Part shown: positions 1,948-64,000 of the stretch, piece by piece
Layout of the letters: each line of letters starts with the position of its first letter
How positions within the stretch are numbered: position 1 is the stretch's first letter
Source of the DNA: an uncultured Clostridia bacterium
GTDB lineage: Bacteria; Bacillota; Clostridia; Christensenellales; Borkfalkiaceae
Assembly (NCBI GenBank): GCA_947631925.1
Contig: CANRNE010000002.1
Span: 62,001-126,000 of the forward strand
DNA: 64,000 nucleotides
Direction of reading: 5' to 3'
Program-made: the position numbers and the translations under genes
Notes under the pieces: model-generated
The model's database searches: none
What the model was told of the DNA's origin: nothing
The model's input: only the letters and a program-made list of their open reading frames with translations

Positions 1948-2359
1948 GTCACCCTGAGCCTGTCGAAGCTTATTATCATGCGGATATGCTTCGACTTACG
2001 CTCAGCATGACGATTTTAGAATCAAGGAAAAAGCAAAAACCGCGCTTTTTGCTTTTTCACCCCATTTGCGACCTCGGGGCTTATTGTCCGATGGAACGAC
2101 CGCGACGACCAGACAAATTAAGCCGCCAACGCTAATTTCCTCGACGAAAAGATTTGCTTTAGCAAAGCTTTTCGCCGAAACCTAAAATTACTTGCGCGAG
2201 CAAAACCACGCTTTTGCGCTGCGCGCCCCCATTTGCAACGCCACCGCAGGCTTATTGTCCGATGAAACAGTACAGTTTGCGCGGCTAAGAGCAGGAGGAG
2301 GCGCGAACGCCTATCCGCTCGAGAAAAATATTTGCGAACGCAAAGATTTTTGTCGAAAC
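1948..2359. repeat. Mosaic intergenic repeat block B1 (between pta and ackA)
   Basis: No gene in this gap. It contains the large inverted repeat R1 (1948-2012, arms GTCACCCTGAGC and GCTCAGCATGAC, inner arms TCGAAG and CTTCGA), a terminator-like hairpin at 2028-2057 with a 12-base stem and T-rich end, a variant of module R3 ending in hairpin 2142-2177, and a second R3 copy (2228-2359) ending in hairpin 2320-2355. The last copy ends directly against the pta stop codon. The same modules recur in blocks near 12, 15, 17.5, 19, 47.5, 56 and 58.5 kb. Confidence 0.85.
2028..2057. terminator. Terminator-like hairpin inside repeat block B1
   Basis: A 12-base perfect stem of AAAAAGC-AAAAA type closes on a CCGCGC loop and ends in T's on either strand. 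A near-identical hairpin is found at 18883-18912 in block B6. It would suit termination after pta, but it is also simply part of the repeat. Confidence 0.55.
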
Positions 2360-4722: not shown

Positions 4723-5035
4723 TAGGCCGCCCCCTTTTGTCATCAGGGCCAAGCCGCGCAAGCGACGCGCGGAGTCACCTCCCCCCTTATACTTGAGGGG
4801 GGAGGGTAGGGAAGGGGGTGCCGCTTCCCAAATCCGTCACCCTGAGCGCAGTCGAAGGGTATCCTTATTATAATGCAGATATATTTCGATGGCGAAGCCC
4901 GCGAGCCGCAGGCGAAGGACTTCGCTCGAAACAATCGCGGCGCCAACGGCGCCGCGCGAATCCCCCCCCACATGAAAAGCGCCGCCCGAAATGGTGTATT
5001 CCATAGGGACTAAATTTCATTACAGAGAAAAAAGA
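4723..5035. repeat. Intergenic repeat block B2
   Basis: No gene between tmcAL and the ABC transporter. The gap holds module R4 (about 4738-4822, GTCATCAGGGCCAAGCCGCG followed by a C-run/G-run pair; it recurs at 14931) and a degenerate copy of inverted repeat R1 from 4836 to about 4930, whose right half differs from the other copies and matches instead the fragment at 11958-12020. Confidence 0.7.
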
Positions 5036-11957: not shown

Positions 11958-12496
11958 TGAATGAGATGTCTCGACGGTGAAGCCCACGAGCCGCAGGCAA
12001 AGTACTTCGCTCGACATGACGAATTTAGAATGCGCCCCACCTCAGTCTCGCTATGCTCGACAGCTCTCTCGGGCAGGTAGAGCCCTGCCCTCGGTCATCG
12101 TTCGCGCGGCGAATGCGCTCACTCTTCGCAAACGCCGCGCACAGCGCACTGTGCTGTGCGCGAAGAATGCGTTTGCTACCCACGGAGGCGCCATGCATGC
12201 CCCTCCCAAGGAATCGCTCCTCATGCCCCCTCCCACGGAGGCGCCATGCATGCCCCTCCCGATGGAATCGCTCCTCATGCCCCCTCCCGGGGAGGGGGGT
12301 AGGGGGGGTGGGTACGAGTTCTAAATTCCTTGCCTTAGGCGGAATTCACTTCCGCCGTGGGCACCCCCATTTGCAACGCCACCGCAGGCTTATTGTCCGA
12401 TGAAACAGTAACGTTTGCGCGGCTAAAAGTATATGAAGGCGCAAACGCCCATCCGCTCGAAGAAAATATTTGCGCACGCAAAGATTTTCTTCGAAA
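11958..12496. repeat. Mosaic intergenic repeat block B3
   Basis: A 0.7 kb gap without a convincing gene. It contains a right-half fragment of R1 (11958-12020), module R2 (12031-12330) and module R3 (12338-12496) ending in hairpin 12458-12493. R2 here has a 54-base tandem duplication (12181-12234 and 12235-12288) that is single in the other copies. Short frames recur within R2, but they are conserved only because the DNA is repeated. Unlike other blocks, the R3 tail here points away from a stop codon: it precedes the plus-strand gene at 12517. Confidence 0.85.
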
Positions 12497-14930: not shown

Positions 14931-15320
14931 TCATCAGGGCCCAGCCGCGCAAGCGGCGCGGGGAGCCCCCTCCCCCCTTATACCTGAGGGTGGAGCGCCG
15001 CAGTTCTCGCTCAACAGCACGGGGTGCTGTGAGCGGCGGCGCGACAGGAGCGCTGGCAGGCGCGACGGACTTTGCGGCGGTCCCTGCCGCCCAAAGAGGG
15101 GAGGGTAGGGGGTGCCGCTTCCAAATAATGTGCGCGAGCAAAACCACGCTTTTGCGCTGCGCGCCTCAATTTGCAACGCCACCGCAGGCTTATTGTCCGT
15201 TGAAACAGTACCGTTTGTGCGGCTACGAGCGGGAGAAGGTACGAACGCCCATCCGCTCGACGAAAAGATTTGCTTTAGCAAAGATTTTCGCCGAAACAAG
15301 GAAGGATTTTCGCCGAAGCT
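14931..15320. repeat. Mosaic intergenic repeat block B4 (between ffh and rpsP)
   Basis: No gene here. It contains module R4 (from 14931), module R5 (about 14995-15097, with a CAGCAC-GTGCTG hairpin) in the opposite orientation to its copies at 18916 and 56186, and module R3 (15130-15318) ending in hairpin 15258-15293. The tail motif CGAAGC ends four bases before the ffh stop codon. Confidence 0.82.
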
Positions 15321-17154: not shown

Positions 17155-17672
17155 GAGAAATCTCGTTCTAATCCGTCACCCTGAGCCTGTCGAAGCTTAT
17201 TATGAATGCGGATATGCTTCGACTCGCCGCGATGCGGCGGCTCAGCATGACGAATTTAGAATGCGCCCCACCTCAGTCTCGCTATGCTCGACAGCTCTCT
17301 CGGGCAGGTAGAGCCCTGCCCTCGGTCATCGTTCGCGCGGCGAATGCGCTCACTCTTCGCAAACGCCGCGCACAGCGCACTGTGCTGTGCGCGAAGAATG
17401 CGTTTGCTACCCACGGAGGCGCCATGCATGCCCCTCCCGAGGAATCGCTCCTCATGCCCCCTCCCGGGGAGGGGGGTAGGGGAGTGGGTACGAGTTCTGA
17501 ATTCCTTGCCTTAGGCGGAATTCACTTCCGCCGTGGGCAACACAATTTGCAACGCCACCGCAGGCTTATTGTCCGATGAAACAGTAACGTTTGCGCGGCT
17601 AAGAGTACATGAAGGCGCAAACGCCCATCCGCTCGACGAAAAGATTTCCGCAGGAAAGCTTTTCGCCGAAAC
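17155..17672. repeat. Mosaic intergenic repeat block B5 (after ftsY)
   Basis: No gene. In order: a short GAGAAATCTC end, inverted repeat R1 (17175-17252, with an extra CGCCGC-GCGGCG inner hairpin), R2 (17262-17500) and R3 (17514-17671) ending in hairpin 17634-17668. The final CGAAAC ends four bases before the ftsY stop codon. Confidence 0.85.
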
Positions 17673-18573: not shown

Positions 18574-18631
18574 AACACTCCTTACACTGTTTGCCACTCG
18601 AAAAGATGTTTTGATGGACCCTTCCCAATCC

Positions 18632-19148
18632 GTCACCCTGAGCGTAGCCGAAGGGTATCCTTATTATCATGCGGATATGCTTCGACTCGCCGCGATGCGG
18701 CGGCTCAGCATGACGATTTTAGAGTGCCACCCCTTCCGTCGCTCTCTTCGTTCGCGCCACCCACCCCTCAAGGGGTGGGCAAGTGACTTGGCGCCCCCTT
18801 GAGACTCGGGCAAGCAACTTGGCTCCCCCTTGAGGGGGAGCTGTCACGCAGTGACTGAGGGGGTGTCATTTCCAAATAACGGAAAAAGCAAAAACCGCGC
18901 TTTTTGCTTTTTTGCGTGGGCGGCAGGGACCGCCGCACGCCTCTTCGCGGAGGCCACCGCTCATGTCGCGCCGCCGCTCACAGCACCCCGTGCTGTTGAG
19001 CGAGAATTGCGGCGCTCCACACAATTTGCGACCTCGGGGCTTAGTGTCCGATGAAACAGTAACGTTTGCGCGGCTACGAGTAAATGAAAACAAAACCGCC
19101 TATCCGCTCGAAGAAAATATTTGCGCACGCAAAGATTTTCTTCGAAAC
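18632..19148. repeat. Mosaic intergenic repeat block B6 (between smc and ftsY)
   Basis: No gene. R1 (18632-18715), a module of C-run/G-run palindromes with a GTCACGCAGTGAC core (about 18760-18866), the terminator-like hairpin 18883-18912, R5 (18916-19019) and R3 (19022-19148) ending in hairpin 19109-19144. The tail ends three bases before the smc stop. Confidence 0.83.
18883..18912. terminator. Terminator-like hairpin inside block B6
   Basis: Same 12-base A/T-rich stem with CCGCGC loop as at 2028-2057, ending in six T's on the plus strand. Confidence 0.5.
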
Positions 19149-25007: not shown

Positions 25008-25013
25008 CACCGC

Positions 25014-25160
25014 TTTGTCATTTCGACCAAGCCGCGTGCCGCCCACTTTGTCATTTCGGCCAAGCCGCGTGCCGCCCACTTTGTCATTTCGACCAAGCCG
25101 CGTGCCGCCCACTTTGTCATTCCGACCAAGCGAACGCAGTGAGCGCGTGGAGAAATCTCG
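25014..25160. repeat. 33-base tandem repeat after mazF
   Basis: Three full 33-base units (25014-25046, 25047-25079, 25080-25112) and a partial fourth that runs into a GAGAAATCTC-ended element. Each unit holds GTCATTTCGACCAAGCCGCG or a one-base variant. The same TCATT-CGA and GAGAAATCTC ends occur at 1930, 17155 and 58070. Confidence 0.85.
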
Positions 25161-47040: not shown

Positions 47041-47135
47041 GGGGAAAACGCTCCCCTCGGCACAATGTTGCCAACAAAAATTCCCTCCCCCTCGCTGCGA
47101 GGGAGAGGGAGATGCAATTTGTTGTTTCGAATCGT

Positions 47136-47624
47136 CACCCTGAGCCTGTCGAAGCTTATTATAATACTGCGGATATGCTTCGACTCGCCGCGATGCGGCG
47201 GCTCAGCATGACGAATTCAGAATGCGCCCCACCTCAGTCTCGCTATGCTCGACAGCTCTCTCGGGCAGGTAGAGCCCTGCCCTCGGTCATCGTTCGCGCG
47301 GCGAATGCGCTCACTCTTCGCAAACGCCGCGCACAGCGCACTGTGCTGTGCGCGAAGAATGCGTTTGCTACCCACGGAGGCGCCATGCATGCCCCTCCCG
47401 AGGAATCGCTCCTCATGCCCCCTCCCGCGGAGGGGGGTAGGGGGGTGGGTACGAGTTCTAAATTCCTTGCCGTAGGCGGAATTCACTTCCGCCGTGGGCG
47501 CCCCCATTTGCCACGCCACCGCAGGCTTATTGTCCGATAACACGACCGCGACAGTGAGCCTATTAAGGCGATTCGGCTAATTTCCTCGACGAAAAGATTT
47601 CCGCAGGAAAGCTTTTCGCCGAAA
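47136..47624. repeat. Mosaic intergenic repeat block B7 (after the giant lipoprotein)
   Basis: No gene in this gap of about 600 bases. R1 (47136-47213), R2 (47223-47460) and a shortened R3 (47475-47624) ending in hairpin 47587-47621. The tail motif CGAAAC overlaps the first base of the giant lipoprotein's stop codon. Confidence 0.85.
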
Positions 47625-53987: not shown

Positions 53988-54064
53988 GCAAAAAGCCGCG
54001 GATAGCGGGATTTCGATGAAAATAATGCGGGCACAAAGATTTTCGGCGAAATAATTTGTTTTTG

Positions 54065-55839: not shown

Positions 55840-56590
55840 AGCGACTTCCTTGCCCACCCCTCGAGGGGTGGGTGTCACGAGCAACGCGAGTGACGGAAGG
55901 GGTGGCGCCTGTCCCTACAACACCCCCTCACCGCCTGCGGCGGAGCTTTCTCGGGCAGGTAGAGTCCTGCCCTCGGGCATCGTTCGCGCGGCAAATGCGC
56001 TCACTCACCGCAAACGCCGCGCACAGCGCACTGTGCTGTGCGCAAGGAATGCGTTTGCGACCCTCAAGGGGGTGCCAAGGAGATGAGCCGTCTATCCGCT
56101 CGACGAAAAGATTTCCGCAGGAAAGCTTTTCGCCGAAACTTAAAATTACTTGCGCGAGCAAAACCACGCTTTTTGCTTTTTTGCGTGGGCGGCAGGGACC
56201 GCCGCACGCCTCTTCGCGGAGGCCACCGCTCATGTCGCGCCGCCGCTCACAGCACCCCGTGCTGTTGAGCGAGAATTGCGGCGCTCCACTCCATTTGCAA
56301 CGCCACCGCAGGCTTATTGTCCGTTGAAACAGTTCTGCTTGCGCGGCTAAGAGTAAATGAAGGTACGAACGCCATTCCGCTCGACGAAAAGATTTCCGTA
56401 GGAAAGCTTTTCGTCGAAACTTAAAATTACTTGCGCGAGCAAAACCACGCTTTTGCGCTGCGCGCCACAATTTGCAACGCCACCGCGGGCTTATTGTCCG
56501 ATGAAACGACCGCGACGACCAGACAAATTAAGCCATCAACGTTAATTTCCTCGACGAAAAGATTTGCGAAGCAAAGATTTTCGTCGAAAC
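55840..56590. repeat. Mosaic intergenic repeat block B8 (between ktrB and ktrA)
   Basis: An 0.8 kb gap without a gene. It holds a CCACCCCTCGAGGGGTGG palindrome module, a diverged R2 (about 55946-56070), a short R3 tail with hairpin 56101-56135, R5 (56186-56289), R3 ending in hairpin 56382-56416, and a variant R3 ending in hairpin 56552-56586. Three terminal hairpins in a row make this the most compound block. The last tail ends one base before the ktrB stop. Confidence 0.83.
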
Positions 56591-57991: not shown

Positions 57992-58059
57992 CAAAAACGA
58001 TGTCGCGCGATTGGTTTCGACGAAAATCTTTCCTGCGGGAATCTCTTGCTCAAGTTTTC

Positions 58060-58574
58060 ATTGTCATTGCGAGCGGGGTCAAGCGAAGCAGAGAAATCTC
58101 GTTCTAATCCGTCACCCTGAGCCTGTCGAAGGGTATCATTATTATCATGCGGATATGCTTCGACTTACGCTCAGCATGACGGAGTAGAATGCGCCCCACC
58201 TCAGTCTCGCTATGCTCGACAGCTCTCTCGGGCAGGTAGAGCCCTGCCCTCGGTCATCGTTCGCGCGGCGAATGCGCTCACTCTTCGCAAACGCCGCGCA
58301 CAGCGCACTGTGCTGTGCGCGAAGAATGCGTTTGCTACCCACGGAGGCGCCATGCATGCCCCCTCCCGGGGAGGGGGGTAGGGGGGTGGGTACGATTGCA
58401 AATTACTTGCCTTAGGCGGAATTCACTTCCGCCGTGGGCGTCCCCATTTGCCACGCCACCGCAGGCTTATTGTCTGATGAAACAGTAACGCTTGCGCGGC
58501 TAAGAGCGGGAGAAGGTACGAACGCCTATCCGCTCGACGAAAAGATTTGCTTTAGCAAAGATTTTCGCCGAAAA
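58060..58574. repeat. Mosaic intergenic repeat block B9 (after the large helicase)
   Basis: No gene. A TCATTGCGAG-to-GAGAAATCTC element (about 58062-58100), R1 (58111-58181), R2 shortened (58190-58396) and R3 (58415-58573) ending in hairpin 58535-58570. It stops five bases before the helicase stop codon. A reversed partial tail lies at about 58014-58045. Confidence 0.85.
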
Positions 58575-58579
58575 ACTCT

Positions 58580-61500
58580 TTACGCCAAGCTTATCCGATC
58601 CGACACCGACCGCACAAACAGCCCCTTCTCCTCGCCATAGGCGATGCACTTCTGCAGGAAGGCATACAGCCGTTCACCGCCGCGCAGGTCGGGGAAGACG
58701 CCCGAAAGCAGCGCGACGAGTTCGTCGGTGTAGAGCGCCACCCGCTCCTCAAGGGCGGCCTTGACGAGGGAGACGACCTCATACACGCTGAAGTCCTCCT
58801 CCCCTCTGCGAAGGGCGGGAGAATTGCTCTCGACGCGGAACTTCCCTATCTGCACGGCGCGGGGATTTTTATAGTAATAATCCACCCCTGCCGCGCGGTC
58901 GCGAAGGAATCCGCACCCGTCGATGAGGGCGTCGAGGCGGGCGTCCACGCGCGTCCCGCTCTTGGCAATGCCGAAGCTCATGAGCAGGCGTTTGCGCAAA
59001 AATGCGCGGGAGATGGGCTCCTCGGCGGAGACGATTTCCTTGAGCCGCGCCGCAATCTCCCCGTCGTGTTCGCCCGAGGTCACGAACGCCGCCGTCTCGG
59101 AGGCGGTCTGTGCGACGAATTTATACGGTCTTCTGTATTTGGAGAACTTCCCGTCCCGCTTCTCCGCCCCGGTGAGGCGGTCGAGGACGTCCTTGATGCG
59201 CTTAAGTTCACGCTTGGGGTTGTTGTAGTAATTGACGCAGTTGATGCGCATCACGTTCCAGTTCATGCGCTTGAGCGTCTGAATCTGCAGAATGTTTCTG
59301 TCCTTGACCGAGAAGGCCTCGGTGCCGTCGCAGAGAATGCCGAGCAGAAAGCGGTGTTTGTTCTTGGGGTCGACGACGGCGACGTCGAGTTTGAAGTCGG
59401 ACGCCCCCACGTCATAGCGGCAGTCATAGCCGTACCCCTCGAGTTCGGCGGCGATGTATTTCCCGATTCCGCCCCCCTTTCTGACGCTGTCCGCACGCAC
59501 GGCGAGCGTCGTCTTGCCCTTTTCGGCGAATTCGAGGAAGGCCTTGAGCCCCGCCACCCCCTTCGACGAAGTCTTGGCGAGGTCAATCATGGGCGAAGTC
59601 ATCGTCGAGAAGACGAGCATCTCCTCCCTTGCGCGCGAGACCGCGACGTTGAGCCGCCGCCAGCCGCCCGCCTGGTTGAGCGGTCCGAAGTTGAGGGAGA
59701 GCCGCCCCAATCTGTCGGGGCCGTAGCACACCGAGAACAGGATGACGTCCCGCTCGTCCCCCTGCACATTTTCGAGGTTTTTGATGAAGAGGGGCTCCTC
59801 GCGGTCGTAAGCCGCCCCTTCGAGGCGCAGTTTCTGAATCTCCTTGGCGAGCATGCGGTCGATGTCGTCCCGCTGTGCGGTGGAGAACGTCACGACGCCC
59901 ATGGAGCGCTTGGAGAGTTCGGGGTCGCGCAGTCTGCGCACGACCTCGGCGACGAGCGCCTCCGCCTCCTTTTTGTTGCGCTTGGTAAAGCCGCGGTCGT
60001 AGGTGCCGTCCACTTTGACGAGCCGCACCCTGCTCTCGAGCGCGTCGGGGGAAGGGAAGGTGCACAGGCGGTTGTCATAGTACATGCTGTTGGAGAAGGC
60101 GATGAGACTCTCGTGCTTGCTGCGGTAGTGCCAGAGAAGGTGCCGCTCTGGCATGCCGAGGGCGAGGCAATCGTCGAGCACGCTCTCGAGTTCCTCCGCC
60201 CCCTCGTCTTCATCGAGATAGGAGGCGCGGAAGAAGGCGGTGGGCGGGAGCTGTTTGGGGTCGCCGACGACGATGCACGCCTTCGCGCGGGCGATGGAGC
60301 CGACCGCCTCCGCCGTGGTCATCTGGGAGGCCTCGTCGAAGATGACGAGGTCGTAGGCATTGGCCTCGGGCTGCAGATACTGCGCCACCGTGATGGGACT
60401 CATGAGAAGGCAGGGACAGACGAAGGCCGACAGCGTGGGAATCTCCGCGAGCAGGGCGCGGATGCCCGACCCGCGCAGGTTGGTCTTCGCAAGGCGGGTG
60501 AAGGCGGCAAGTTCGATGCTGACCGCCCCCTCGTCCTCGGGTTTGGGAAGGCGGGCGATGAGCTGCGCGCGCAGATACTCGCGGGAAATCTTCTGATATT
60601 CTTCCCACGCGAGGCGGAACTTTTCCACCGTGTCCTCGAGGGTGCCCACCGTCATGCGGGAGAGCGCCTCGTCCTGCGGAATGTTGATTTCGAGGAAGTT
60701 TTTATAGACGTTCTTTTCGAAGCCCGCGAGCACGGTGTCCACGCGCAGCCGCCCGCTCTCGAGGGCGTCCGTGATGAAGGTGAGCCCCATCGCGGAAAGT
60801 TTCTTCGCCGTCGCGCGGTACATGCACCAGTTGGGGAGCATGTCCACGTTGTCGATGAGCGCGGAGGCCTTCTGCGAGAAGTAGTCGAGGATGTCCTCCC
60901 CGCGCACCTTGGAAGGGTCCGCCGCTGTCACGGCAAGGAAGCTCGCCTCGGCGGCAAAATAGCTCTCCGCCGCCTTTTGGCACCCCTCAAGCACGGGCAT
61001 GGTATACCCGTTTGCGGCGCGGATGCACATTTCGTTGAATGCGTCGGGGTTGTATTCGAGGAAGGTTTTCTCCGCCGCGGCATGCAGAGCGGAGAGGTCT
61101 TTGAGGAACTCCGCCCGCTTCTTATAGTTGATTTTCCCGCTACGGTCGCAGAAGTTTGCGGACAGCTTCGTGTTCTCCGTGATGCGCTTCTCGGCGGCGG
61201 CGATGTCGACGAGCGTTTGCAAGTATTTGGGCGCGTCCGCCTCGTCGAGGGGGCTCAATGCGACGCGGGAGAGCCGCTTGAAGGCGGCCTTTGCGGGACG
61301 GAACAGCTTCCAGTCCCCGCCGTTTTCGAGCAGTTTTGCAATCTCCTCCGCCCCGTCCTCGTCGACGAGGGACTTGAAGTGGCGGAAGTAGTAGGCGAGG
61401 CAGGCGTCCAGCCGTCTGTTGGCATTGAAGAAGCGGTAAAATTCCCCCACGTCCGCCCCCGCAAAGTACTTGTCGTAGCGGTGGGAGGCGAGGTCCCCCG

Positions 61501-64000
61501 CGAGGGAGACGAGGCTCTGCAACTTCTTGCGGGTGAGCGTCGAGATGCGCTGGCGGTAAAACTCGAGGAAGAGCGCAAGGAAGGCGCGCAGGTGCTTGAT
61601 TTCGGTGAGAATGACCTCGGACGCGCAGAACACGCGGTCGCGCAGGGCTTGGGAATACTCGGAGAGGTTGACGTTCTCGAAGGGAGAATTGCACACCCCG
61701 CCGCACTCCTTCGCCGCCGCTGCGGCGGTGAGAATCATCTGCTTGCAGTCGGACAGCTTCTTCTCGTCGAGGGAATCGTAGAACGAGCTCTCGATGTCGA
61801 GGATATCGGGCGCGTTTTTGTTCTTGAGGTAGCCCAAAATGGCGTCATAGACGGAGATTCCGAGCCGCCGCCGCTTGTGCAGGGCGCGCATGGGCGCCTT
61901 GAGCTCCTCGCGCAGCGCCGCAAGTTCGCGGGTGCGTTCGCCGAAGCCCACCTCTTCGCCCCTTCCCGCAAGGGCGAGCGTCTCCTCCATGCGGCGGAGA
62001 ACTCCCGCCTTGTCCGTCTTGTTGGAATGCAGTTCGAGGCAGAAATCCCCCGCTCCGATGGCGTCGAGCCGCTTTTTGACGACGTCGAGCGCCGCCTTCT
62101 TCTCGGCGACGAAGACCACCCGCTTGCCGTGCAAAAGGGCGTTGGCGATGATGGCGGAAATGGTCTGGCTCTTGCCCGTTCCCGGGGGGCCGTGGAGCAC
62201 AAACGAGGCACCCATGTCCGAGAGCGACACCGCGCTGTACTGCGAACTGTCGAGGGAGAGCGGGGTGAGAAGACGGGCGGGGTCGTCCTCGTCTTCCTCC
62301 GCCGCGGAGAGCGGTTCCCGCTTGGGCGGCGTGCCCGAAAGGAGGGCGGAGACCGTCTCATTCTTGGCAAATTCGTCGATGTGCGTGCGGATGTCGTTCC
62401 AGAGCAAGAAGTTCTGGAAGGAGAACACCGAGAGGTACACGTCCTCGACGATGTCCCACCCCTTCATGGAGGCCGTCTCGGCGCGCACCATCGCAAAAAT
62501 CTCCGACAGGCGCAGCAGGGACACGTCCCCGCCCAGCCCGCGGATGTCGATATTAAATTCCTGTTTGAGGTATTCGAGCAGCGTCGCGTTGACGAAGTAC
62601 CCCTCGTCGCCCGCCGCGACCGTGAAGTCCTCGTTGCCCTTGGCGCGGGCAAGCGAGACGGGCGAGAGCACGAGCGGGGCATACTTTTCCAGCCCGTCCT
62701 CGCGGCTCACATATTTGAGGAAGCCGAGCGCGAGGTAGAGAATCTTCGCCCCCGTCTCCTCGACGGCCTCCCGCCGCCTGCGGAAGAGTTTGGAAGCCGT
62801 CTCCGCGAGCGACTTCTGGTCGGAGAGCACGCGCAGAATGCCCTTCTGCTGTTCGAGCTCGTAGAGCGACTTGGTCTGCGGGGAGACTTCCGCGCCGAAT
62901 TTCTCCTCCGCGCCCCCCGCTTTCAGCTTCATGCTCCCCTTTTCGGCGAGACGGGAGAGCAGGGCGTCGCACCCCGCAGAGGCGATGTGCAGGGCATTTT
63001 TTCCCTCGAAGGAGAGCAGCGTGTTGCGGAAGGTGAGGTCGAGGAGCCGCCTCTCCCACGCCTTGTTCTTGGGCTGTTTGCCGTCCAGTTTGAGGTCGCG
63101 GAAGACGGGCAGCGGCTCGGGTTCCCCCTCCTCCGCCTCCTCGCGGTACACTTCGTAACCCTTGATGCTCCTGCCGCGCATCGGGCAGACGCCGATCCCC
63201 CCCATGCGGCAGCGGCGAATGTCTGCAAAATATTCGAAGTAGCCCTCCTTCAGCTTGGTGCGGAAGTGCCCCTCCGAGGGCGTAAAGGTGGCATTGCTCC
63301 CGACGAAGAGGTCCTCCACGTCGAAGAAACTCAAGTTGTTGATGCCGTCCGAGGCATATTTCTCCACAATCTCCGCATCGTCGAAGGCGGGCTCGAGGAA
63401 GCAGCTGTCATACAGCCACACGCCGACCGCGACTCCCTTGCCCACCGCCACGATGGGATGAAAATGCGCCGCCTCGAGGCAGGATGCGACAAGGATTCCG
63501 AGTTCGAACGCCGTCGCCCGCCTGTCCTTTAAGACGGACCCCTCCCGCACGGCGGGAAGCGGCGCCGAAAGGTCGCAGGGCTCATTTCCGATGCCGAAGG
63601 ACTTCACCGACTGGAAGATGGCGGCGAGAATTCTTCGCACCGTGTTCTTGTCCGTCCCCGTGTAGCCGAAAAATTCGGCGTCCGCCTTCCACTTTTTGAG
63701 AAGTTTCCCCGCCTCCGCCAGCACGACGGCACAGTCGCTCGCCCGCGGCCGCACGAAGCACGCGATGCGCTCCGCATTGCCCGAGAGCCCCTCCCAGAAG
63801 TCGAAGGGAAGGACGGTTATCTCCGCACTGCCATGGGCGACTTCCTTGCCCGAATGGCGCACGGAAACTTCCACCGTGACCGTGTGAATCTCATTGCATT
63901 CCGCAAGATATTCGGGGGAAAAGACCCCGCTGTTCTCCATGGAAACCGCACTCTCGAAGGGGACCTCCACCGACTGCTCGTAGGGAAGAAGCAGTCCCGC
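58580..64000 (-). CDS. Very large superfamily I helicase with DUF4011 and C-terminal nuclease-like domain (5' end beyond window)
   Basis: A COG1112-type protein of at least 1,806 residues. Numbering from a GTG at 63970, which is not necessarily the start because the frame stays open to the window edge: a beta-rich N-terminal part, DUF4011 (RRLLDLTFRNTLLSF near 307-321), Walker A GPPGTGKSQT at 594-603, a long helical insertion, Walker B FDEAS at 1211-1215, GDPKQLPPT at 1236-1244, QGDERD at 1403-1408 and NVAVSRAREE at 1441-1450. A segment at about 1500-1595 resembles the MTES_1575/Vsr-like endonuclease fold, and a DUF3320-like region and winged-helix end follow. Relatives occur near anti-phage defence genes, but no defence partner is visible here. 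Confidence 0.88.
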   Translation of the reverse strand, partial: AGLLLPYEQSVEVPFESAVSMENSGVFSPEYLAECNEIHTVTVEVSVRHSGKEVAHGSAEITVLPFDFWEGLSGNAERIACFVRPRASDCAVVLAEAGKLLKKWKADAEFFGYTGTDKNTVRRILAAIFQSVKSFGIGNEPCDLSAPLPAVREGSVLKDRRATAFELGILVASCLEAAHFHPIVAVGKGVAVGVWLYDSCFLEPAFDDAEIVEKYASDGINNLSFFDVEDLFVGSNATFTPSEGHFRTKLKEGYFEYFADIRRCRMGGIGVCPMRGRSIKGYEVYREEAEEGEPEPLPVFRDLKLDGKQPKNKAWERRLLDLTFRNTLLSFEGKNALHIASAGCDALLSRLAEKGSMKLKAGGAEEKFGAEVSPQTKSLYELEQQKGILRVLSDQKSLAETASKLFRRRREAVEETGAKILYLALGFLKYVSREDGLEKYAPLVLSPVSLARAKGNEDFTVAAGDEGYFVNATLLEYLKQEFNIDIRGLGGDVSLLRLSEIFAMVRAETASMKGWDIVEDVYLSVFSFQNFLLWNDIRTHIDEFAKNETVSALLSGTPPKREPLSAAEEDEDDPARLLTPLSLDSSQYSAVSLSDMGASFVLHGPPGTGKSQTISAIIANALLHGKRVVFVAEKKAALDVVKKRLDAIGAGDFCLELHSNKTDKAGVLRRMEETLALAGRGEEVGFGERTRELAALREELKAPMRALHKRRRLGISVYDAILGYLKNKNAPDILDIESSFYDSLDEKKLSDCKQMILTAAAAAKECGGVCNSPFENVNLSEYSQALRDRVFCASEVILTEIKHLRAFLALFLEFYRQRISTLTRKKLQSLVSLAGDLASHRYDKYFAGADVGEFYRFFNANRRLDACLAYYFRHFKSLVDEDGAEEIAKLLENGGDWKLFRPAKAAFKRLSRVALSPLDEADAPKYLQTLVDIAAAEKRITENTKLSANFCDRSGKINYKKRAEFLKDLSALHAAAEKTFLEYNPDAFNEMCIRAANGYTMPVLEGCQKAAESYFAAEASFLAVTAADPSKVRGEDILDYFSQKASALIDNVDMLPNWCMYRATAKKLSAMGLTFITDALESGRLRVDTVLAGFEKNVYKNFLEINIPQDEALSRMTVGTLEDTVEKFRLAWEEYQKISREYLRAQLIARLPKPEDEGAVSIELAAFTRLAKTNLRGSGIRALLAEIPTLSAFVCPCLLMSPITVAQYLQPEANAYDLVIFDEASQMTTAEAVGSIARAKACIVVGDPKQLPPTAFFRASYLDEDEGAEELESVLDDCLALGMPERHLLWHYRSKHESLIAFSNSMYYDNRLCTFPSPDALESRVRLVKVDGTYDRGFTKRNKKEAEALVAEVVRRLRDPELSKRSMGVVTFSTAQRDDIDRMLAKEIQKLRLEGAAYDREEPLFIKNLENVQGDERDVILFSVCYGPDRLGRLSLNFGPLNQAGGWRRLNVAVSRAREEMLVFSTMTSPMIDLAKTSSKGVAGLKAFLEFAEKGKTTLAVRADSVRKGGGIGKYIAAELEGYGYDCRYDVGASDFKLDVAVVDPKNKHRFLLGILCDGTEAFSVKDRNILQIQTLKRMNWNVMRINCVNYYNNPKRELKRIKDVLDRLTGAEKRDGKFSKYRRPYKFVAQTASETAAFVTSGEHDGEIAARLKEIVSAEEPISRAFLRKRLLMSFGIAKSGTRVDARLDALIDGCGFLRDRAAGVDYYYKNPRAVQIGKFRVESNSPALRRGEEDFSVYEVVSLVKAALEERVALYTDELVALLSGVFPDLRGGERLYAFLQKCIAYGEEKGLFVRSVSDRISLA

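Follow-up and report, generated by a model that had tools for sequence, protein, structure and literature searches.

A mosaic intergenic repeat of uncultured Clostridia whose terminal hairpin appears to keep its folded shape, not its sequence

The R3 unit and its neighbouring genes

The stretch of DNA analysed here (the window, 64 kb) comes from a gut bacterium of an uncultured Clostridia lineage. Within it, hairpins designated P4 follow smc, ftsY, ffh, pta, trkH, and two very long ORFs. P4, itself 35–36 nt long, forms the 3′ module of a four-helix mosaic repeat, R3, approximately 175 nt in length. R3 units occupy the gaps pta/ackA, trkH/trkA, smc/ftsY, and ftsY/ylxM—the genes concerned all being on the same strand—and lie within the operons smc-ftsY-ylxM-ffh, pta-ackA, and trkH-trkA, although no common function unites the flanking genes. 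One unit is laid out as follows.

58398..58570, plus strand: R3 unit (predicted fold; boundaries by alignment of copies)
about 58398–58451, plus strand: P1, with a variable and exchangeable tip
about 58455–58500, plus strand: P2, holding the conserved TTATTGTCTGATGAAAC and TTATTGTCYGATGAAAC
about 58504–58535, plus strand: P3, from the predicted fold of the unit
58535–58570, plus strand: P4, the terminal hairpin

The predicted fold of this unit has a z-score of −3.8 on the plus strand and −2.2 on the minus strand. By eye, the tip of P2 shows paired variation like that of P4 (CCGAACCCTTTCGG, CGCATACTTGCGG, and GCCCCACGGGACG). RNAalifold, applied to a MAFFT alignment of R3, recovered the structure as fragments only, owing to length variation in P2 and P3. 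Units are arranged both in tandem and as mosaics.

Eleven P4 hairpins in the window

The original prediction listed eleven P4 hairpins in the window, each with a stem of about 16 pairs, and all eleven are present.

2142..2177, plus strand: CGACG/CGCCG stem with inner GC; first of a tandem R3 pair in the pta-ackA gap
2320..2355, plus strand: CGAGA/TGTCG stem; starts 4 nt past the pta stop (minus-strand reading)
12458..12493, plus strand: CGAAG/CTTCG stem, then AAAAAATAAATAAAGGAGTAATTATG on the plus strand in a start-like context; an exception to the stop-codon rule
15258..15293, plus strand: CGACG/CGCCG stem with tandem G·A; 30 nt past the ffh stop
17634..17668, plus strand: CGACG/CGCCG stem with inner CC/GG; 8 nt past the ftsY stop
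19109..19144, plus strand: CGAAG/CTTCG stem; 7 nt past the smc stop
47587..47621, plus strand: CGACG/CGCCG stem with inner CC/GG; 3 nt past the stop of a 2084-codon minus-strand ORF
56101..56135, plus strand: P4 of a triple R3 array in the trkH-trkA gap; the unit most distant from trkH
56382..56416, plus strand: CGACG/CGTCG stem; middle unit of the triple R3 array between trkH and trkA
56552..56586, plus strand: CGACG/CGTCG stem; 5 nt past the trkH stop
58535..58570, plus strand: CGACG/CGCCG stem with tandem G·A/A·G; 9 nt past the stop of minus-strand ORF 58580-63970

Each arm does span 16 positions, but only 13–15 of these pair, because of an A·C third pair, an A·G mismatch, and, in some copies, a second tandem mismatch. 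Six copies (2142, 15258, 17634, 47587, 56101, and 58535) have the A·C pair (CGACG/CGCCG), and all eleven have the A·G mismatch, between AAAA/TTTT and TTT/AAA; the second mismatch adjoins it (tandem G·A/A·G) in copies with AAAAGATTT..AAAGATTTT. Paired positions change together, as had been claimed, with double compensatory changes at three stem positions within the window. The inner closing pair alternates between G-C and C-G (TTTGC/GCAAA against TTTCC/GGAAA), pair n2 between C-G and A-T, and stem position x between G-C and T-A. The loops do vary among the copies.

Partial or degenerate P4-like hairpins, outside the earlier list, lie at 54014–54048 and 58018–58052. Extra partial P4 3′ arms (AAACAAG..GATTTTCGCCGAA) are found just outside full P4 hairpins at 15294–15310, in the gap between the ffh stop and P4, and in loci of other sequences (L003 488–525 and L005 1468–1503), as if a newer unit had entered the end of an older one. 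A 33-nt tandem repeat, CCACTTTGTCATTTCGGCCAAGCCGCGTGCCGC, occupies window positions 25010–25131.

Copy number and range

In the whole genome from which the window derives (G000; 1.92 Mb, 75 contigs), a search with one R3 tail gave 49 matches. Two symmetric-core patterns gave 45 and 64, the second pattern constraining just the A/T portion of P4 and the CTCG..CG at its ends, against none for a reversed-pattern control; these counts exclude a chance origin of the hairpins. The hairpin core also occurs in records of uncultured Clostridia bacterium, Candidatus Coproplasma, and Candidatus Gallimonas. The core pattern matches eight of 297 genomes of the order and four of 291 of the class, most of these belonging to the family, and is thus nearly confined to the genus and one Clostridia family. 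Compared with Rfam 15, P4 and R3 gave no score above the gathering threshold of any family, and a literature search by order name found no work on intergenic repeats of the order.

Pairing is conserved across the genus

Inside the window, most copies could be traced to two or three founder stems, mostly of CGACG and CGAAG type, plus small variations; the window alone would therefore not settle whether pairing is conserved, and by itself would fall to the refuting condition that the original prediction set. The hairpin set collected across the genus, in contrast, goes well beyond such founders and withstands that condition. Among the matches listed by the search, which left outer pairs n1–n3 and the internal loop free, 21 genomes contribute at least 92 distinct hairpins. 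The R3-type subset, defined as hairpins without a following GAGGAG, comprises 75 hairpins from 12 genomes and contains 33 distinct arm pairs, again among the matches listed. At least nine differing outer stems occur across these 12 genomes: CGACG/CGCCG or CGTCG, CGGCG/CGCCG, CGAAG/CTTCG, CGCAA/TTGCG, and CGCAC/GTGCG, and further CGCGC/GCGCG, CGCGG/CCGCG, CGCGA/TCGCG, CGTTC/GAACG, and CGAAA/TTTCG.

Among the 33 arm pairs from the matches listed, 97.2% of cells are paired (86.4% when shuffled), and both sides are changed in 42 cells against 13.0 shuffled. For the same arm pairs the covariation score is 0.260, compared with 0.056 for shuffled sets (0 of 500) and at most 0.069 for slid partners. 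This signal comes from n1–n3, since columns fixed by the search pattern cannot vary and are hence uninformative; in the 12 genomes each of these three pairs occurs as four or five of the standard pair types. When every genome is represented by its modal stem alone, 32 of the 36 pairs are formed across the 12 genomes, which none of 20,000 re-dealings matched. On a tree built from the 125 nt upstream of P4 in 82 elements, pair-to-pair changes on the same branch number 17 at n2 (2.4 expected), nine at n3 (1.6 expected), and three at n1 (2.3 expected); these counts are not taken as P values, because exchange of whole P4 modules also yields coincident changes.

Matching junctions show the same behaviour. 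Position x is G-C at the ftsY 3′ end of G000 and T-A in the relative G002, and the stem behind smc is CGAAG/CTTCG in G000 and CGCAA/TTGCG in G069; outer stems are swapped wholesale between genomes, with pairing retained. Both sides of the hairpin are rewritten together in related species, and therefore it is the folded shape of P4, not its sequence, that appears to be kept. The earlier proposal that the paired structure is the conserved thing is accordingly borne out by genus-wide pairing, covariation, the modal-stem comparison, and the tree.

Copying of founder palindromes and shuffling of their modules, with no selection on pairing, could also yield apparent covariation. The reduction of most window variants to CGACG- and CGAAG-type stems is what such shuffling would leave, as are chimeras with mispaired arms, e.g., CGAAG/CGCCG, found elsewhere in G000. 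Nevertheless, this account is very unlikely given the 33 arm pairs among the matches listed (97% paired), the variety of outer stems in 12 genomes, the double changes at matching junctions, and the numerous coincident changes on the tree.

A recurrent mismatch and the folding strand

The position inside AAAA/TTTT, left free in the search, is A·G in 86 of the 92 hairpins among the matches listed, with G·A, T-A, or G-C as its neighbour. In a second hairpin group, the internal position is GA/GA in 76 of 82. On the plus strand of R3 the mismatch takes the tandem sheared G·A arrangement, an established motif of RNA and DNA, and we infer that this motif is important in R3.

Two possible indicators of the folded strand were dropped. 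Whole-unit fold energy is better on the plus strand in only 21 of 68 units, whereas the z-score is lower on that strand (−3.7 versus −2.9), and so the two measures disagree. The asymmetry between G·U and A·C is no better guide: in R3, G·U falls on the gene-sense strand (A·C on the plus strand) and points to that strand, whereas in the type II hairpins described below G·U falls on the plus strand and points to the other. The A·C of R3 is, in addition, largely one inherited state.

Position behind stop codons

In the orientation of the adjacent gene, P4 is the first module, directly past the stop codon. With ORFs of at least 80 codons considered, 32 of 50 copies in G000 follow an ORF ending no more than 60 nt away; the distance is at most 15 nt for 19 of these copies and 3–9 nt for 17. 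Random intergenic positions lie that close to an ORF end in 28% of cases for the 60-nt limit and in 5% for a limit of 9 nt. By this test the other 18 copies do not follow an ORF end; many of them are inner units of tandem arrays, and the copy at 12458 lies ahead of a start-like site. Among relatives, G002 and G016 have R3 units ahead of a gene identified by eye as rpmJ, and one unit in G002 stands directly past infA (also read by eye).

A hairpin directly past a stop codon invites comparison with an intrinsic transcription terminator. That reading was rejected as extremely improbable: P4 does not combine a GC-rich stem with a T run, no T run follows it on either strand, and a terminator scan placed no site on it. 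Because it lies between same-strand genes of one operon, lacks a T run, and attracts no terminator call, P4 is probably contained within mRNAs without ending them.

Turnover between relatives

The presence of R3 at orthologous junctions is patchy. Behind ftsY, R3 is found in G000 and G002 and is absent, with the next gene close, in G016, G012, and G007; between smc and ftsY it is found in G000 and absent in G002, G019, G004, and G005. Both junctions are empty in several relatives, with short gaps. The more distant G009, G010, G008, and G018 carry hairpins of quite different sequence at the same junctions. Such patchiness may reflect loss instead of movement.

Type II elements in relatives

Related genomes carry a further arrangement, the type II element, in which GAGGAG separates a hairpin H1 (core AAAAGATTTGC..GCAAAGATTTT, as in P4) from a second, variable hairpin, H2, and the element terminates sharply in GCGACG (L085, L086, L094, L153, L195, and other related loci). 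In seven loci this end is exactly the CCA of convergent tRNA genes; TGG follows the end at offset 0 in 13 of 95 elements, at offset 3 in nine, and at other offsets in about one. At L203, L202, L139, and L113 the element sits inside tandem duplications of approximately 80–130 nt, some with parts of tRNA genes. Long direct repeats at type II elements were considered as target duplications and rejected, as those at L203 and others look like tandem duplications of element plus flank.

P4 and H1, with their recurrent A·G (tandem G·A) loop, might conceivably serve as the mark by which some undescribed mobilisation system recognises its elements and inserts them, 3′ end leading, exactly at the 3′ ends of genes, namely at stop codons for R3 and at tRNA CCA for type II (H1-GAGGAG-H2-GCGACG). 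We regard this proposal as speculative and rather doubtful.

What R3 may be

R3 is multi-copy, conserved in its pairing, marked by a recurrent mismatch, placed behind stops, and patchily present among relatives. It is probably a new REP/BIME-like family that spread at the DNA level and is transcribed into mRNA, where it forms a hairpin immediately past the stop codon. R3 would spread or turn over as short non-coding DNA and settle directly behind genes, and it would be co-transcribed inside operons; the upstream message would therefore bear the reverse-complement hairpin a few bases past its stop. Shape may be kept for either or both of two reasons: a moving enzyme may recognise the mismatched single-stranded hairpin, or the RNA hairpin may slow the terminating ribosome or block 3′ exonucleases, effects that have been reported of E. 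coli REPs. Transcription, mobility, and any effect on translation or decay are inferred.

Enzyme binding alone could conserve the hairpin if R3 were purely a DNA-level mobile element, either MITE-like or a single-stranded hairpin substrate, with its stop-codon position arising from target choice or from selection against other sites. We consider this possible, though less than probable. The approximately 64 hairpin copies, their tandem and mosaic arrangement, and their patchiness at orthologous junctions all suit such an element, as do the related hairpins of type II elements next to the 3′ ends of tRNA genes and the recurrent strand-asymmetric mismatch, which is reminiscent of hairpins read by single-strand transposases. 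However, no enzyme was found with R3, no clear target duplication was measured for it, and enzyme specificity would have to follow the replacement of whole hairpins between species. At the other extreme, R3 could be a functional RNA—a 3′ UTR regulator, an mRNA-end protector, or a processing signal—selected site by site and scarcely mobile. Its spacing of 3–9 nt behind the stop for 17 of the 32 copies that follow an ORF, its place inside operons, a whole-unit fold that beats shuffles, and compensatory changes at matching junctions agree with this, but close relatives lack R3 at the same junctions, the flanking genes share no function, and Rfam offers no match, so that we hold it to be quite unlikely. 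Comparison of natural stem variants at one operon junction makes testable the long-standing question of whether such repeats persist as DNA substrates or as mRNA hairpins.

Comparison with known systems

Most of what is known of REPs comes from Proteobacteria in which RAYTs accompany them. Like the REP/BIME elements of E. coli and Pseudomonas, R3 occurs between genes in many copies, as mosaics and tandem arrays, and contains a short imperfect palindrome: P4 falls within the 20–40 nt of such palindromes and is intergenic, with 64 matches in 1.92 Mb and none for the control. It likewise lies mainly downstream of coding regions (32 of 50 copies versus 28% of random intergenic positions), often within 15 nt of the stop. 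REPs generally lie mostly downstream of ORFs (PMC3733652), and ribosome stalling has been reported for E. coli REPs that lie no more than 15 nt past a stop (PMC12306157).

Unlike these elements, R3 has no GTAG tag and no association with a RAYT/Y1 transposase, its palindrome is one module of a four-helix unit of approximately 175 nt, its host belongs to the Clostridia, and its stem sequence has been replaced among congeneric species, with the A·G mismatch retained. Neither an unpaired GTAG nor an unpaired CGTC tag was found at the end of P4, the flanks being CT and AAA, and at P4 CGTC is confined to the paired arm as read on the minus strand. No linked Y1 (RAYT) transposase was found, nor a hairpin near any of ten Y1 loci; Y1_Tnp is present in 16 of 61 genomes of the genus and absent from the hairpin-rich G016, G064, and G074. 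Y1/RAYT was thus rejected as the mover, being neither linked to nor co-distributed with the hairpin.

With the CGTC-tagged REPs (Di Nocera 2013, PMC3733652), P4 shares palindromes downstream of ORFs and the lack of a known dedicated transposase, but its CGTC is not an unpaired tag and the published families come from other phyla. Another repeat in the window, CGTCACCCTGAGC..GTCGAAG (1943–2012, 4835–4889, 17170–17260, 18631–18720, 47130–47220, and 58107–58181), frequently forms inverted pairs with CATGACG ends and lies close to R3 units at several sites; it resembles the CGTC-tagged REPs and appears nearer to that family than P4 does. Mismatched subterminal hairpins also recall the ends of IS200/IS605 and PATE-type derivatives; R3, however, has no TnpA alongside and no evident paired left and right ends. 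R3 acts like a REP yet falls outside both tagged REP super-families and the RAYT association: a REP-like family of Clostridia, with no RAYT found alongside, whose stem has been rewritten repeatedly within a single genus without giving up its pairing, its one mismatch, or its place past the stop codon.
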